Assembly (NCBI GenBank): GCA_002189035.1
Contig: NEEC01000004.1
Span: forward strand, 3,906,001 to 3,970,000
Direction: 5' to 3'
DNA: 64,000 nucleotides
Source: Utricularia gibba
Taxonomy: Eukaryota; Streptophyta; Magnoliopsida; Lamiales; Lentibulariaceae
Shown here: in pieces, positions 7,691-64,000 of the stretch
How positions within the stretch are numbered: position 1 is the stretch's first letter
Layout: every line of letters starts with the position of its first letter
Program-made: the position numbers and the translations under genes
The notes under the pieces: generated by a model
The model's input: only the letters and a program-made list of their open reading frames with translations
What the model was told of the DNA's origin: nothing
Database searches by the model: none

Positions 7691-7909
7691 TGATTTTCTT
7701 GGATTTTTAGTTGTAGGTGTTTACGACTTTTATGATTTTAATGATGAAGTGGAATTTGGATTGTGAACTAATATTTTTAATTATATATATTTAATCACAT
7801 AATACATATTTTATGATCTTCTCGAAATTTTTAATTTACATGTTTTTTAGGTATGATACAAATAAGGTTACCATTGCATGTAACCTGACTTTATATGAAC
7901 TATCACACC

Positions 7910-8041
7910 TATCAAAGTAGTGCATCAATCGAAAGTCATCTATCTACCATATCTATCAAAGTAGTGCATCAACTGAAAGTCCTCTATTTACCACACCTAC
8001 TAAAGTAATGTACCAACCAAAAGTCATCTACCTACCACATC
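7910..8041 (+). repeat. 44 bp tandem repeat, three copies
   Basis: Three head-to-tail diverged copies (7910–7953, 7954–7997, 7998–8041), each beginning TATCAAAGTAGTGCATCA or a close variant, lie between the ORF1 and transposase remnants of Harbinger-1. Confidence 0.8.
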
Positions 8042-8106
8042 TAACACAATGTTTTCAATCCAAATTACCTTATATATATACACCATAGCTCATAACTTTT
8101 TTCACA

Positions 8107-9300
8107 ATGAATCCTCACAACTCTGACAATGTTCCATACCAAAATGTTTATTTCAATCCAAATGATATTTCATTCTTTATGCCTAGCCATAGTGATATTA
8201 TCATTGATGTTGTTGATTTATTAGAAGATGAACCAAATCCGTTCCAAAGGCAAAGAGGAAACCATGCATAAATTGATCATGATCTTGAGATAGACAACGC
8301 TCGTCTGGTAGCAAATTATTTCTTTATTAATGCTACATACAATGATCAAATGTTTCACCATTGTTTCAGAATACGTCGTAGTTTGTTTGAGCGTATTATC
8401 TGCAGTGTTCGGGAAGTATAGCCATATTTACAATAAAGAATTAATGCAACAAGATGTGTCTTATTAACCACAATACAAAATTGCATTACTGCTATGCGAA
8501 TAATGGCTTATGAATATGGTGCAGATGCTTGTGATGAATATCTTTGAATTAGTGGGTTTGCTATCATCAAATGTTTAAGGTCTTTTGTATTTGCAATTCG
8601 TATTGTATTCGAGACAGAATATATGAGGCATCCCAATTCGAGTGATATTCAAAATTACTTTTATGGGGAGAAGAAAGAGGATTCATAGGCATGCTCGGAA
8701 GTACAGAATTTATGTATTGTGAGTGGAAGAATTGTTTAGTGGCTTGAAAAGGTCAATATAGTCGTGAGCATAGTTCATCTATTGTTATCCTAGAGGCTGT
8801 AGCCTCAAAGAATACTTGGATATGACACTCTTTTTTTGGAACTCTTGGTTTCTCATAATGATCTTAATGTATTATCACATTCACCTTTATTCGATGATTT
8901 GCATCAGGGTTGCCCCTTCGATCGAATACTTTGTGAATGGGAAGAAATACGAATGAGATATTATTTAACTAATGGTATTTATCCCGAATGACGCGTTTTC
9001 ATGAAATGAAAACTATCACTCTTCTACAAAATCCAAAAACAAGATTATTTGCTACTATCCAAAAAAGTGCAAGGATGTAAAAAGAGCATTTGGAGTGCTT
9101 CAAGCAAAATTTGCGATCATTTACTCACCAGCTCGAGCATGGGATCATCAAACGTTTATTAATATTATGTATGTTGTAATAATTTTACAGAATATGATAG
9201 TGGAAGATGAAGATGATGACGAATGGCCAAATCTTGGAGATTAGGATCAAGTTAATGTTGGACAACTATCCGATGTTTTGGGATAAAATGTTCATATTTT
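8107..9300 (+). pseudogene. Decayed PIF/Harbinger (HARBI1-like, DDE_Tnp_4) transposase
   Basis: Recognisable blocks in family order: FRIRRSLFERII, ITAMRIMAYEYGAD, EERGFIGMLGSTEFMYCEW, KNTWI, SHNDLNVL, DVKRAFGVLQAKFAII and LQNMIVEDED. Several stop codons and frame changes separate them. Two of the three catalytic acids are also altered: the first aspartate (usually SLDCMHW) reads STEFMYC and the final glutamate (usually DVERAFG) reads DVKRAFG. Only the middle aspartate survives, in SHNDLNVL. The copy is therefore inactive on two independent grounds. Confidence 0.8.
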
Positions 9301-55208: not shown

Positions 55209-57207
55209 TCACCAGTACTCATCCATTTGAAGAGTTGGTGGAAACAAAGGGCTATGATAAGGCCTTTGATCGAGCAGGTGTTGGATGATGCGTCTATGGA
55301 CAATTCGATCATCACAGAGTGAACAACGATCCCCAGTTCTAGAACCTATCAACACAAAGTTAACACAAGGATGAAAAGTGTCTATGGAATGAATCATTCC
55401 ATTAGGGGACTCTAATAAATCGATTGTGCACCATGGCAATCACTCTGTACTAGAGGATACAACTTGCTTTACTTATTTGCTCTTCTATGATATCGACGTC
55501 CACCCATACAACTTGGAAATAGGATTGTTTTGTCACAACATGCACCTGTTTTTGATACATATCTTCCTGGATTATACATCAAATGAAATGGTGCATGTCA
55601 TCTTTTAGTTGGAGGTAATGGGGGGCTAAATTGCTTTGACCACAACTTTGCACATCGTTCAAATATATCTTCAATCAGTATTGTGATGAGAAGTCTTCGT
55701 GCTCCTCTCAATAAACTATTCATCGATTCTGAAATACTAGTACTAAGAATCTCACACCTGCAATTTGATTCAAAATTGTTAATTAAAGGTAACAAAATTC
55801 AATATAATTAAAGTAAACCATATATTACCTATAACCATCATCCTATGCAAAGGTCCATCGTTTTCTAAAAATCGTAGCAAGATAATCATAAGTATTCTTG
55901 TTTTTCTCTTTTATCTTATTCATGAAAATCTGAAACTTTGATTTTTGGATATCATTGCAGCATTCCAAAATAAATTATGAAAAACCTCTTATTTAAACTT
56001 AGCTCTAAAGTTCTCATGCAAATGTTTTAGAGAATATCGATGAGCTCCTTGTGGCTCTTGAAAGACTTGAAAGCTATTGACTACCTTACGTATCCCTACA
56101 TTTTGATCAAAAATAATACATGTAGCACAAGAATCAGATTTGATAACATGATCCATTAGGTTGCTCAAAAAGCAATACCAAGACTCAAACGATTCTTCCT
56201 CAACAATTCCAAATGCTAAAGTAACAATAACTCTATCACCATCAAGAGTTATCGCAATAAGTAACTTGAGTCGATATTGTGAGTACAAGTGTGTAGCATC
56301 AATAGAGATAATCAGTCGGCAATATTTATAAGCACATATACAAGTTCCAAATGCCCGGAACACACGATGCAACATAGCCTCATCCAAATCTGTATGAAAA
56401 TGATCATATTTAACAATAGTACTTAAAATAAATGAAAATGAACATATTAAATATTTATTCAAACATGTAGAGTAACAACAATATAAAATATATGATATAG
56501 CATCTTGAATAGCTTTTAAACATATTGGCAAGTTAGGTACCGAGGTTTCCCATGTGCCATATAAATCTCAAATATAATGCTTGATTCCAAGTCATGCTTT
56601 CTTATATGTTGATTTAGCATTAAGTTGATTTTTCATCAATGTGATCACATTAAAAACAGTAATATTAGGATCTGTGCAATGACATTTGTTCGCACATTCA
56701 CATGACGAATAGAACAGAACTACTAATGAAACATGTATGAGGTCCATCATACTGTGAAACTACTCAATCCTATATAACTTTATTGAAAATAACTCTAACA
56801 CGCCACATGCATTTCAAAATGGTTTCCCTATGCAAACAATGAATTTCATATTGAGAATTACTTGATTTGTATACCTTGAAAGAGCGTTTCATATTTTCAA
56901 TTACATTGAAGGATAAAACTGTCTTCATTTGTTCTTTATCTCTAAAGTATTTTACATTAAAAAGCTCTTCACATGCATTATCATAGTAAATAAATCGAGT
57001 ATATTCTATTAAAGAATCTGCAAACATTAACTCCATATTAACATAAGGATTGTAATCAACCTCATCACTCCAATCATCATATGACTCATCAATATTATAT
57101 AATATATCATTTTCATCAATATACTTCTCACTACTAGCTTTTTTTTTAGAACTTTCACATGAATTTGAAGAATAGATACGATATGATTGCACACCCTCCA
57201 TCTTCAT
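55209..57207 (-). pseudogene. MuDR-type MULE transposase, fragmented
   Basis: Minus strand, in family order: N-terminal MuDR block KYFRDKEQMKTVLSFNVIEN with WRVRV; transposase core AFGTCICAYKYCRLIISIDA, THLYSQYRLKLLIAITLDGD, LAFGIVEEESFESWYCFL, CIIFDQNVGIRKVV and HRYSLKHLHENF; then CRCEILSTSISESMNSLLRG from the downstream helical part. The SID and FDQ aspartates of the core are present. The pieces lie in separate frames with stops between them (open parts 56770–57207, 55989–56531, 55598–55795). Some gaps could be introns, but I treat it as degraded. Confidence 0.78.
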
Positions 57208-58272: not shown

Positions 58273-59714
58273 GAAGAAATAACAATTATTTTACTAGTAA
58301 CACAAAGCAATCAATAAATATAAAATTTAAATCACACCACCATTAAGATAATCAACACAATAGGTACAAAAACAGAACTCTCTTTATAATTTAACATGAA
58401 CGTAATTTATCATGAACTTGATAAGAGATTAAACTATTTTCTTTTGGAGATGAATCAAGCCCAAGTCTTTCTCTCAAGATTGATCACTTGTGGTAAAGAT
58501 AAATCCTCTTATTTTATTATGTGAAATGGTCCAATCTTTATGCTTTATTGGTGGTGGCTCACACCAACTTTTTCATACACTTATTACATATGTGGTGGTA
58601 ACTCCACATATATGAATATGTGGATAGCTCCAACTCACTTGTTGGACTTTATGTTTGGGTCTAAATTTCTATTAAATATTATTTGAAGTAATTCAATTAC
58701 TTCAACAAAGTGAGTTTATTTTAAAAAATATTATCTATTTTATATATTATTTGAAAATAATAATTTTCTAAAAGACAACTATCTTCTTAAAAAATTTTAA
58801 TTTATTATTTGAATTTAAAATATAAAAAACATAAACATATCATGGTCACAATGAGATAATATAATTGGGATAAGAGAGAGACTCATGATCTTCATTAGTT
58901 TTGACACTATTAATGTTAAAGGCTCTTGATTGATTAATTTTAGGGATATATGACTTAGCAATTTTTTCCAAAGATTGTTGAACATAAGAATCATGCAATG
59001 ATGTTGGAGTTTCATTTAATGTTATGTTTGATACTGGTGTTTATAGACTTTGTAATGTTGTTGATTTATTCGTAAATAAAATTAAGAAGAATCAAAGAAT
59101 GAACTTGAGAAGAAAATATGAAATATCATGATTTCACTTGTAGTTGTTTGGTTATTAGTATTAGTTTCTCCATTTATTACTATCATGGTGGAGTAGATTA
59201 CTCATGTTGTTGATATGTAAAATACACTATCTTAGATATAGATATTCTGAATCTGATATAAGTTGAAGAAAAAATTGATGATTGCAAATAAGGAGAAAAA
59301 TAGTTTTTAATATATATACAAGACTAAATGAATGTGGGCTGACTTGAATCATTTAAACATATACTTAAGAAATCCTCTAATTTCAATAATGGCCCCTCAA
59401 TTCTCCGGCAATATGATTTTTACCCTTCATTAGTTGCATACGGGGGCTTATTTGGAATTATTTGCCTTTTAAATACCAAGAATTAACCACTTCCACATTC
59501 AGAAAATGGACCTTTATGTTGGGCCATCAAACCAGCCCAAATTGTTGGCCCAGTAACCTCTCGTCGTCAGCAACAACCTCTGTTTCGGAACAGAAGTGTC
59601 GTCCGTCCCCGCCCCGTCCCTCTCCCCGAACCCTCAAAAACCTTCATAAACCTCTTCCTTTCGGTAAATCTCAAAGTCCTTTCCTCTCCTTTTTCATTCG
59701 CAATTTCTTGGTAC
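58273..59714. other. AT-rich spacer and LAS1 promoter/leader
   Basis: 58273–59450 shows no supportable gene; the 66-codon minus-strand frame at 58815–59015 has no domain. 59460–59714 is GC-richer promoter and leader of LAS1. Confidence 0.5.
59520..59552. promoter_or_regulatory. Site II cluster upstream of LAS1
   Basis: TGGGCC at 59520, AGCCCA near 59534 and GGCCCA at 59547 lie about 165–195 bases before the ATG. The motif type is the same as in the DPH1 and LTO1/uL24m promoters. Confidence 0.55.
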
Positions 59715-62450
59715 ATGGAGACGATGCTTGGATTTGAGGATGATGGCGGAATCGAAGTCGTCGAGGGCAAGCCCATCAGAATGAAGCTGGTACCTTGGAT
59801 CAGCTGGGACGAGTGGATGTTTGTGAAAGAGTCCCTTTTCTCTTCAAATCCTTATTCTGTTACTTCGGCTATTCATAGAGTACGAAATTAGCCAAAATGC
59901 TGCAGTTCTCGTTTTTGAGATGTGAACTTGCAGAATTTTAATTTTTTTCCTCACCTTGCTGCGTTTGTAGATACGGACGTGGCAGAGTAGAGGATGCATT
60001 CCAGTTTTGGTTGAAGTTACCGCTTCTATTGTTGAAATTCGGCACAAAGATCCTTTCTTCAGGTTTCTCATTGTGACCCTCTCTTATTTTATGGTTGTAT
60101 TGGTGTGAACATTGGAAGTTACTATATTGTTTCGTGTTATGTAATATGTTAATCTGGATTTTTGATGCTTGAAGACTTAAATGATTTGTAAGTTTTCCAA
60201 CGTGAATGATGTAAAACTTTTATTTTTTTTTGTTTTGAGTATTCCATACTTGTGTGTATAACAGAAATGACTTAGATGATACTGGCTTTTCGACTGAGGA
60301 ATTGGCCATGCTGTATTGCATGGCAATAATGAGGTGAACATTCATTCGACCTTCTCCCTACTGGATTACATGCAGTTTTTTTTGTTTCCTCCATCTTGAT
60401 GTAAACTTGGTGGTTTTCAAGGCTAGTTAATGGGGTTATCGAGAAGAACCGGAAAAAGAATGAGATTTCTATAGGTGAAGCCGCTGAGATAATTGGTATC
60501 CCCAGAATGCTCATAGATATCCGGCATGGTGAGTGTGAACTTGTATTTAATTAGCTTTTCTATGTTTATGCTGGTACTAGAAACTGGTCATAACTTGTTT
60601 TGTTATTTGGTGTTCCACAGAGGGTTCTCATCGGGGTCTTCCTTCTCTTCAACTGCTTCGAGTGGCATCAGAAAAAGTACTGTTTTTCAATCTAACTGAG
60701 CCAGTTTTTTTTTTCAATTTTCCCTTGTTTACTTAAATATGTCAAGGACCCAGAATCCACCCAATAGAGTCCTCTAATCATAAGGTTCTGTGGTCTTGCA
60801 TTATATCTCATTTTTCTTATACTAGAAAGTATTCATTCAAAGGATGTCCCGTTCAACTTTATGATGTTTTTGTACTCTATCTCGGTAACTCATTTCTGAT
60901 TTTCTTTCATCAACATGTTGGATTTTCAGGCACTTGGCTGGTTGGTACGGTACTATTGGGAACCTCAAGAAAAGTTGATTGCTCCATCTAGTAATACCGC
61001 AGACAATCTTAAGAGAGAAATCAAGTGCATCCTACTTGAAGTTGCTTTCTCTCTGAAGCAAAAGCAGGAAGCAAGGGCTGGCTCTTCAAATGTTAGAGGA
61101 AAAGGTGAGTGCTCTTCATGACAAATAGTTCATAGATCTCACCTGTTTCAGGCGGTAGTAAGTTTTCCATCTTTTGTCACTGGCTTCCCATCACATTCAT
61201 ACTCTTGTTCGGCAGCTGTGTTTTATTTGCTTAATTTCATTCTTATTTATGTAACTCCACCTTCCACTTATATTTCAGGTATCAAGGACCAGCTTGCCAA
61301 GTCAATAAAGAGCATCCTCCAGTTGTATTCATCATCATTCTCTCAAGAAGTAATCCATATTCTTTTGGATTACGTACTAAATGCATTAAACAATCACCTG
61401 AGAGAAATCTCAGAAAACTTGCAAATTGCTGAAAGGCCCGAAGTGAAGCAAACAGCATTTGATGATTGGAAATCTTTTGTGGTGAAGCTCTCTAGCAGCA
61501 GCCCAGAGTTCCTTGTCGCTCTGACACAAGGAGTTCTTGAGAAGCTTGAGACAAATAAAGCTTTTGGTCATCAAACAGGTAACAATTCTATCCTCACCCT
61601 ATATACTTGCAGTAAATTTCTTGAATATCCTCCATAATGCCCATCTCCATCAGATGACAAGGGAATGATGGGCATCCCCAAGCTACCAGTCCGAATTAAG
61701 TTACTTTGGCGTCTGCTCGAGTGGCTGACTGGAAGCATGAAGAAACTAACAGAATCTCCAAAAAGCAAAGCTCCCATGGTAGAAAAGCATCTTTCAAAGG
61801 AAGTTGTCCGTGGATTACTACGCAGATGTCTTCTGGCATCCCCTCCACCCAACAAAGTATCAAAATCAGCTGTCATCACACTTGCCGAACTAAATGGACA
61901 CATTGGTCTTCTGCAAAATGTCAGAAAGCTTGTTTCAATGACTTGGCCATTGGTTCCAGAAACAGAGTCCTCTGACTCCTTGGATCTTGGCCTAGCTGAA
62001 TCCTCCCTGAGTCAAGCATTAGAGAAGTTCCATTCGGTCACCCGACATCAGATTCAGACACTATCCGAAGAACCCGTAAAGAGCAGATGGGCTGTAACCA
62101 AATCATGGAACCCATGCCCCATTGGGATGCTGCCTCATCATGTAGGCTTCTCTGGTAGGTTGCCGAATCTCGACAACCAGAGCGATGAAACCTGTTTCCC
62201 AGGTATGAAAGAGAGCAGTCAAGGGAGGCCAGGTAAAAGAGAAGCAGACAGTGAGAAGTGTGACAAGGTATTTGCTAAAAGAATGAAGGAGACAGAAGCA
62301 GATTATTCAGGCAACTGCTCAGAAACCGTTGGTGGAGATTGCCCTGTGGGTCGTATGTTGATAGGCGGAGCATGGAAGAGCATTGGAGAGCAAGAACTTT
62401 TGGGCATTGCCTCTACCATAAGACTGCTTGTCGAACCAACAGACATTTAA
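59715..62450 (+). CDS. LAS1: LAS1-like pre-rRNA ITS2 endoribonuclease
   Basis: Eight exons in phase: 59715–59879, 59971–60062, 60265–60333, 60422–60528, 60621–60676, 60930–61104, 61279–61578 and 61654–62450, giving 586 residues. LAS1 is the HEPN nuclease that cuts ITS2 in pre-60S particles, working with the Grc3 polynucleotide kinase in the nucleolus. The N-terminal Las1 domain opens VPWISWDEWMFVKESLF, then AIHRIRTWQSRGCIPVLVE and DTGFSTEELAMLYCMAIMR. The HEPN catalytic motif is RHEGSH at residues 143–148, split by an intron. Next comes LPSLQLLRVASEKALGWL, then a plant-type helical middle and a polar tail with basic stretches, ending VGRMLIGGAWKSIGEQELL. All splice sites are ordinary and no defect is seen. 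Confidence 0.92.
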
Positions 62451-62739
62451 GATGACGCATGTTCAGATTATGTAGTAACTTTAGAGATCAAGCTAGTTGT
62501 CAGTAAGTTTTTTAAATCGAGTTTGTAAAACATACCCTCCAATAAGCAAGATCCAAACCAACTTATTCTTTGGGATCCAAAAAAATTTATAAATTTAATC
62601 TGTGTTCTAGAAAAGTTCTATACTGAATTCATAAAACGTTGTTTCCTTTCGGACAGTCATAAAACGTTGTTTCTATTCTTGGACTTTGCTATGGAACCAT
62701 AATGAAGAGAGATTGGCTTTCTTTATCGACTATGATTGG

Positions 62740-64000
62740 ATTGGGTTGACCCATGATAACGGACTGGTCCGTGCCATGTTTACAAATTTGGGCAGGACCA
62801 CGATAATGGCTTCGAATGGGCCACATGGCGGGATGGTCTGGGCTCGGCCACCTATATAGATTAGGCCCGCCCAAATCATAATATTAACAACGCCTAGCCC
62901 AACTATTATGTTAGCCCAACCCATTTATTAATATTGGGCCACCAACCACTTTCCATGGCCCATACCAATAATTAATTTAATTCAAATGCATAAATGCCAA
63001 ATGAACTGGCCCAGCGCTTCACGTGCCCCTACCGATAACTTTAGCGAGGCGAAGACCATTACGTTAACGTGACCCAGCCCATAACACCTCGCCCAACCCA
63101 TTACTTTATATTGACCCAACCCGTCCCTTCTCTCGAGCCAAGATAATAATTAATCTTTGCCCAGTCCATAAACTAATCTTCACCCGGCCAAAAATTTAAC
63201 CAAGGCCCAGCCCATAATTTGATAAAAGGACCCGACATAACTAACAAAGGCTCATCCTATTAGTTCATGTCAGCTCAACCCACCACGTCACTGGCCCAGA
63301 CCATTAATAAACGTGGCCCATTCCATCAATTAACTTGACTCAGCCCAAACGTTAACCATGGCCCAGACCATAAACTGTTATATGGCCCAGACCATTAAGT
63401 AAAGTGGCCCAGTCCAACAATTAACTCAGCTCAACCCAAACATTAATCATAGCTCAGACCATTAATTAGCGTGGCCCAATCCATCAATTAACTCGGCTCA
63501 GCCCAAACATTAACCATGGCCCAGACCAACAATTCACGTGGCCCAGTCCATCAATTAACTCGGTCAGCCCAAACATTAACCAAGGCCCAGACCATTAGTT
63601 AACGTGGCCCAGTCCATCAATTAACTCGGTCAACCCAAACATTAACCAAGGCCCAGACCATTAGTTAACGTGGCCCCGTCCATCAATTAACTCGGATCAG
63701 CCCAAACATTAACCATGGGCCAGACCAATAATTAACGCGGCCCAGTCCATCAATTACCTCGGCTCAACCCAAACATTAACCATGGCCCAGACCATTAATT
63801 AACGTGGCTCAGTCCATCAATTAACTCGGCTCAGCACAAACTTTAACCATAGCCTAGACAATTAATCAACGTAGCCCCGTCCATCAATTAACTCGGCTCA
63901 GGCCAAACATTAACCATGGCCCAGACCAATAATTAACATGGCCCAGTCCATCAATTAACTCAGCTCAGCCCAAACTTTAACCATGGCCCACACAAATAAT
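62740..64000. repeat. GGCCCA minisatellite, 66–67 bp unit, continuing past the window
   Basis: From 63293 to the end, about ten head-to-tail copies of a 66–67 base unit, which is itself three related ~22 base sub-units: GGCCCAGACCATTAATTAAC, GGCCCAGTCCATCAATTAAC and a CTCAGCCCAAACATTAACC type. From about 62740 to 63292 the same words recur in degenerate, irregular order. The region has no coding frame. It starts about 300 bases after the LAS1 stop. Confidence 0.9.

Follow-up and report, generated by a model that had tools for sequence, protein, structure and literature searches.

Utricularia gibba serves as a model of a plant that has purged its non-coding DNA. In CACTA and hAT transposons, the subterminal repeats comprise many short GC-rich motifs whose orientation changes within the element. 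Plant minisatellites and satellites with higher-order repeats, such as the minisatellite families of Beta vulgaris (PMC2820488) and the satellites that give rise to eccDNA (PMC2543021), form head-to-tail arrays with higher-order periods, a homogenised centre and decayed edges, and are present at several loci as locus-specific variants. The putative centromeres of U. gibba have been reported to be without satellite repeats (PMC8333044). Site II promoter elements (TGGGCY) are a further point of comparison; they are bound by AtTCP20 (PMC6892148).

We analysed a stretch of 64,000 nucleotides of U. gibba DNA, hereafter the window (C413:3906001-3970000 in the searched assembly), which ends within a tandem array beside the gene annotated as LAS1. 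This array and its relatives resemble the plant satellites in each of the above respects, but they are very short and scattered between genes, and their core is common across loci while their spacers differ. The site II hexamer is present in most monomers; unlike promoter elements, however, the array lies outside the LAS1 promoter, is without the 8-base TCP consensus and repeats in one orientation over kilobases. With CACTA and hAT subterminal regions the family shares the many short GC-rich motifs and the change in orientation, whereas no termini, target duplication or coding partner were found for it.

Structure of the array beside LAS1

The array was followed rightward along the same contig. 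Within the window, TRF identified a repeat of period 67 at 63382-63990 (9.1 copies, 88% matches, score 931), and on the extended contig it found 22.3 copies of the 67-bp unit, from 63382 to the window-equivalent position 64871. The tandem array starts near 63292-63382, ends past the window edge and contains about 70 copies of a 22-bp monomer. The higher-order unit comprises three monomers of 22, 22 and 23 bp, two of which start with GGCCCA and the remaining one usually with GGCTCA. The initial annotation had described three sub-units of about 22 bases, two starting with GGCCCA, and had considered it probable that the main array lies beyond the window; both points were borne out, the latter by a further 870 bp of array on the contig. 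Its triplet repeat also stands, although the length it gave, 66 bp, applies only to occasional units.

This array is the centre of a GCCCA-rich island of 3.1 kb (62737 to about 65837) with degraded edges. GCCCA and TGGGC occur 61 and 22 times, respectively, in the 3.3-kb span 62701-66000, compared with 39 and 46 times in the remaining 62.7 kb of the window. The strands alternate along the island, with minus at 62737-62867, plus from 62863 to ~64960 and minus again at ~65080-65837. Copies left of 63397 have 0.60-0.79 identity to the 67-bp consensus; from there to about 64670 the value is 0.88-0.97, and by 64871 it has dropped to 0.60, so that the copies do become more regular rightward, as had been annotated. 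The old monomers at the left have identities of 0.60-0.69 up to 63262 and 0.79 in the next step, and their column conservation in an unsupervised profile HMM is 0.67 in the core and 0.57 in the spacer. Of the triplet array originally drawn across 62740-64000, the part from about 63382 is retained, whereas 62740-63290 consists of old degenerate monomers and 62737-62867 has the opposite orientation.

Table 1. Positions of the features discussed; numbers without a contig are window positions.
Feature	Position	Strand	Support
Gene with the moderately supported name LAS1, exons within	59487..62450	+	ORF ending at 62450; weak match to Pfam PF04031
Left edge of island, ~6 degenerate monomers, TGGGC orientation	62737..62867	-	runs of core matches
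Match to model R1 in left edge of island	62732-62798	-	11.8 bits, E 0.028
About 19 old, diverged monomers in which the core GGCCCAACCCA can still be recognised	62861..63291	+	unsupervised profile HMM
Homogenised array, 67-bp repeat from about 63382, running on to 64871	63292..64000	+	TRF and genome search
pre-miR168, 2.7 kb right of window edge	66691-66854 (L012:4692-4855)	+	RF00677, 93.9 bits
MULE transposase domain	55989-56531	-	Pfam, E 2.4e-10
44-bp tandem repeat	7900-8043		3.3 copies
MIR168 paralogue	C412:2210909-2211030		
MIR168 paralogue	C4:752357-752535		
Array	C1:6417.1-6420.2k		
Array	C1:8119.6-8119.8k		
Array	C4:530.0-530.5k		
Array	C4:715.6-716.7k		
Array	C4:928.8-929.7k		
Array	C142:1489.0-1493.9k		
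Array	C213:2536.4-2536.9k		
Array	C317:508.8-510.5k		
Array	C321:1007.3-1008.3k		
Array	C321:1155.7-1157.4k		
Array	C321:1338.9-1341.3k		
Array, near copy at C333:8.6k	C328:1648.9-1649.2k		
Array	C375:1467.2-1467.9k		
Array	C375:1485.4-1487.1k		
Array	C377:1-590		
Array beside LAS1	C413:3968.7-3971.8k		
Array	C413:4245.1-4246.9k		
Array	C413:4352.2-4353.8k		

A dispersed family of arrays

The searched assembly comprises 516 contigs and 100,091,633 bases. Wide occurrence of the unit as an ordinary satellite, which the initial annotation had named as the observation that would speak against a role in TCP binding, proved to be half the picture: the 67-bp unit is found at a single locus (C413:3969292-3970853), whereas the 22/23-bp monomer makes up no fewer than 18 arrays, each about 0.2-4.8 kb long, on nine or more contigs (Table 1). 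This census is a lower bound, with arrays located by core-containing patterns at a 20-odd-bp pitch; the patterns were counted 28, 9, 72, 75 and 63 times, compared with 0, 0, 10, 15 and 5 times for the reversed-pattern controls. Weak candidates at C402:808k, C317:1050k, C505:533k and C328:1334k were left out of the count. The array beside LAS1 therefore combines the three properties by which we recognised a satellite or minisatellite, namely head-to-tail repetition of a 10-100 bp monomer in many copies, local homogenisation with diverged edges along its identity profile, and related arrays dispersed over at least 18 loci.

The monomer consists of an 11-bp core, GGCCCAGCCCA, followed by a drifting spacer of 11-12 bp. 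Circular profile HMMs, trained for each array from random seeds without knowledge of the core, all reached a monomer of 22 or 23 bp starting with GGCCCAGCCCA or AGCCCAGCCCG. The core of the family is partly ascertained and cannot prove kinship, because the arrays were located through it; the spacers, which were not used in the search, can. Identity among spacer consensuses was 0.436 in register and 0.296 +/- 0.020 in shuffled register (P=0.0005), and with one array per spacer type it was 0.40 versus 0.26 (P=0.001). Spacers of type CATAAATTAACAT occur in the array beside LAS1 and on C375, CTCCTCATGGC in C4:530, C4:929, C142 and C413:4352, CACACCTTCTAACC on C1, and CATACTAAATGC-like spacers on C317, C321 and C377. 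A sequence-only covariance model trained on 12 arrays matched the held-out arrays L081 (E 2e-11), L078 (6e-11), L077 (4e-8), L072 (3e-7), L080 (1e-6) and L079 (6e-5), and gave no match outside the island in the rest of the 64-kb window.

The other arrays adjoin unrelated genes, each with its own version of the spacer and often with its own higher-order period. The largest sister array (C142, 4.8 kb) flips orientation near one end (L061 2018-2437 and 2460-6861), and the C1 array is bracketed by a direct duplication of 294 bp with 90% identity (L060:4600-4893 and 8210-8497). One array on C375 contains a miniature element whose ends are rich in GGGCCGGCCC and which was assigned by eye as hAT-like (L050:4610-5150; C375:1486.1-1486.6k); as the element sits within the array, the array predates the insertion. 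No description of this repeat was found in the open-access literature, and the arrays apparently constitute a dispersed euchromatic satellite family that has so far not been described.

Genomic neighbourhood

The gene name LAS1 rests partly on the initial annotation, as the match to the Las1 family PF04031 (E 0.0044) falls under the curated cut-off; we regard the name, assigned from sequence, as moderately supported. The island starts 0.29 kb past the stop codon of this gene, placing the array 3' of LAS1. The next gene rightward is MIR168, whose precursor (fold of -77.7 kcal/mol, z -7.3) lies ~0.85 kb from the island and is followed by a Rop exchanger (PRONE) gene. The array is thus flanked on one side by the LAS1 3' end and on the other by distal sequence upstream of MIR168. 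No arrays were found at the two other MIR168 loci, on C412 and C4, and the C4 locus shares only the proximal ~280 bp of upstream sequence with the MIR168 beside the array. A conserved MIR168 regulatory array was thus rejected, and the array is no general element of MIR168 genes.

The MULE transposase domain listed in Table 1 is part of a broken element that precedes LAS1 by a few kb, and the 44-bp tandem repeat near the left end of the window is unrelated to the 22/23-bp family. Elsewhere in the assembly, mitochondrial cox1 (C515, L074) reads LLLLCCSALVE, with a Cys-Cys pair by which the genome was placed in Utricularia; the pair is present at that site in all Utricularia examined and in one Genlisea section (PMC11688529).

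Origin of the arrays and alternative explanations

We consider it quite probable that the array beside LAS1 belongs to a family of short satellite (minisatellite) arrays dispersed through the genome, that no host function is needed to account for it, and that the arrays are best read as mostly neutral and locally homogenised. Unequal exchange or replication slippage would repeatedly re-homogenise the centre of an array while its edges decay; a homogeneous centre, a higher-order period, decayed edges and locus-specific spacers are what either process predicts. Rare copying of array pieces into new sites, for example by recombination of excised circles or by break repair, may then spread the family. 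Satellite-derived circles (eccDNA) are common in plants (PMC2543021) and could be the vehicle.

The neutral satellite was also one of three readings offered initially, and it fits best; the other two were an amplified promoter fragment and a factor sink. A putative cluster of TCP (site II) sites, arising from promoter sequence or acting as a factor sink, is favoured by the 71 TGGGCY hexamers of the 3.1-kb island, ten times the 7.4 +/- 2.6 in dinucleotide shuffles, and by the known binding of AtTCP20 to such elements. This abundance is a consequence of one monomer being repeated in tandem; it provides no separate evidence of binding. The dense TCP sites that had been annotated exist as the 6-base core, but under the 8-base consensuses (PMC6892148) neither class exceeds expectation: the class I sequence GGNCCCAC occurs 0 times in the island (shuffle mean 1.0) and class II GTGGNCCC twice (1.0 expected), because the base following GGCCCA is mostly G and not C; the sister arrays have 0-2 class I sites each. 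An amplified fragment of the LAS1 promoter is likewise unsupported: the array lies 3' of the gene and not 5', the monomer is present at no fewer than 17 other loci beside unrelated genes, and a left-flank search of the assembly found no other genomic source. TCP-based explanations are thus highly improbable.

We give equally little credence to a non-autonomous DNA transposon, CACTA- or hAT-like, with amplified subterminal repeats. The orientation flips at both ends of the island and in the C142 array are reminiscent of inverted subterminal arrays, the copies are dispersed, and 6 kb leftward there is a relic of a MULE transposase. Most arrays have a single orientation, however, and the two arms of the island are very unequal. 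At 11 arrays, TIRs, TSDs and terminal direct repeats were not found above shuffles with gapless scoring, which could miss short or imperfect ends, so that the TIR and TSD of a class II element (CACTA, hAT or MULE) are lacking at this level. When arrays were compared with each other, long similarity was confined within them and ended at their borders; the few further pieces shared between loci (113, 155 and about 70 bp) all lie outside the arrays, and the flanks have no shared termini. Protein coding was rejected since the mixed 22/23-bp units break any frame and the GC-rich sister arrays show long open frames in several frames simultaneously. The array beside LAS1 contains 0 canonical G-quadruplexes (four G3+ tracts, loops of 1-7).

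One property of the arrays is not predicted by pure neutrality. In most old arrays conservation is higher in core than in spacer columns, by 0.10-0.17 (two pieces from C375, at 0.05 and 0.00, are the exception), whereas uniform decay, simulated 40 times to match a single array, gave a difference of -0.003 +/- 0.027 with a maximum of 0.058. Mixed, ancestral spacer types within arrays could produce part of this excess without selection. Alternatively, a sequence-specific protein other than a canonical TCP, of the host or domesticated, might bind the core and preserve it while spacers turn over, making the arrays clustered sites at roughly two-helical-turn spacing that could act as a chromatin boundary, enhancer or sink. 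Besides the core conservation, on which this suggestion from sequence is founded, the pitch of 22-23 bp is constant in all arrays whatever the spacer, and at least one gene 5' end adjoins six of the eight arrays whose flanking genes were examined. In a compact genome, however, most stretches between genes are next to a 5' end in any case, and the C142 and C4:929 arrays have gene 3' ends beside them, insofar as the neighbours were identified. The MIR168 paralogues do without arrays, and in the young part of the array beside LAS1 spacer columns such as TTAAC are conserved as well as the core. We judge a selected binding site unlikely.

Conclusions

The arrays most likely represent a satellite family of an ordinary kind in an unusual setting, between the genes of a minimal genome. 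For the array beside LAS1, a tempting regulatory story loses support. If a protein did preserve the core, the arrays would represent clustered binding sites of a lineage-specific class that persists in the face of strong deletion bias. About 18 gene-adjacent arrays with one core provide a small, tractable set for studying the spread of satellites from one euchromatic site to another and for asking if selection can act on a short core.
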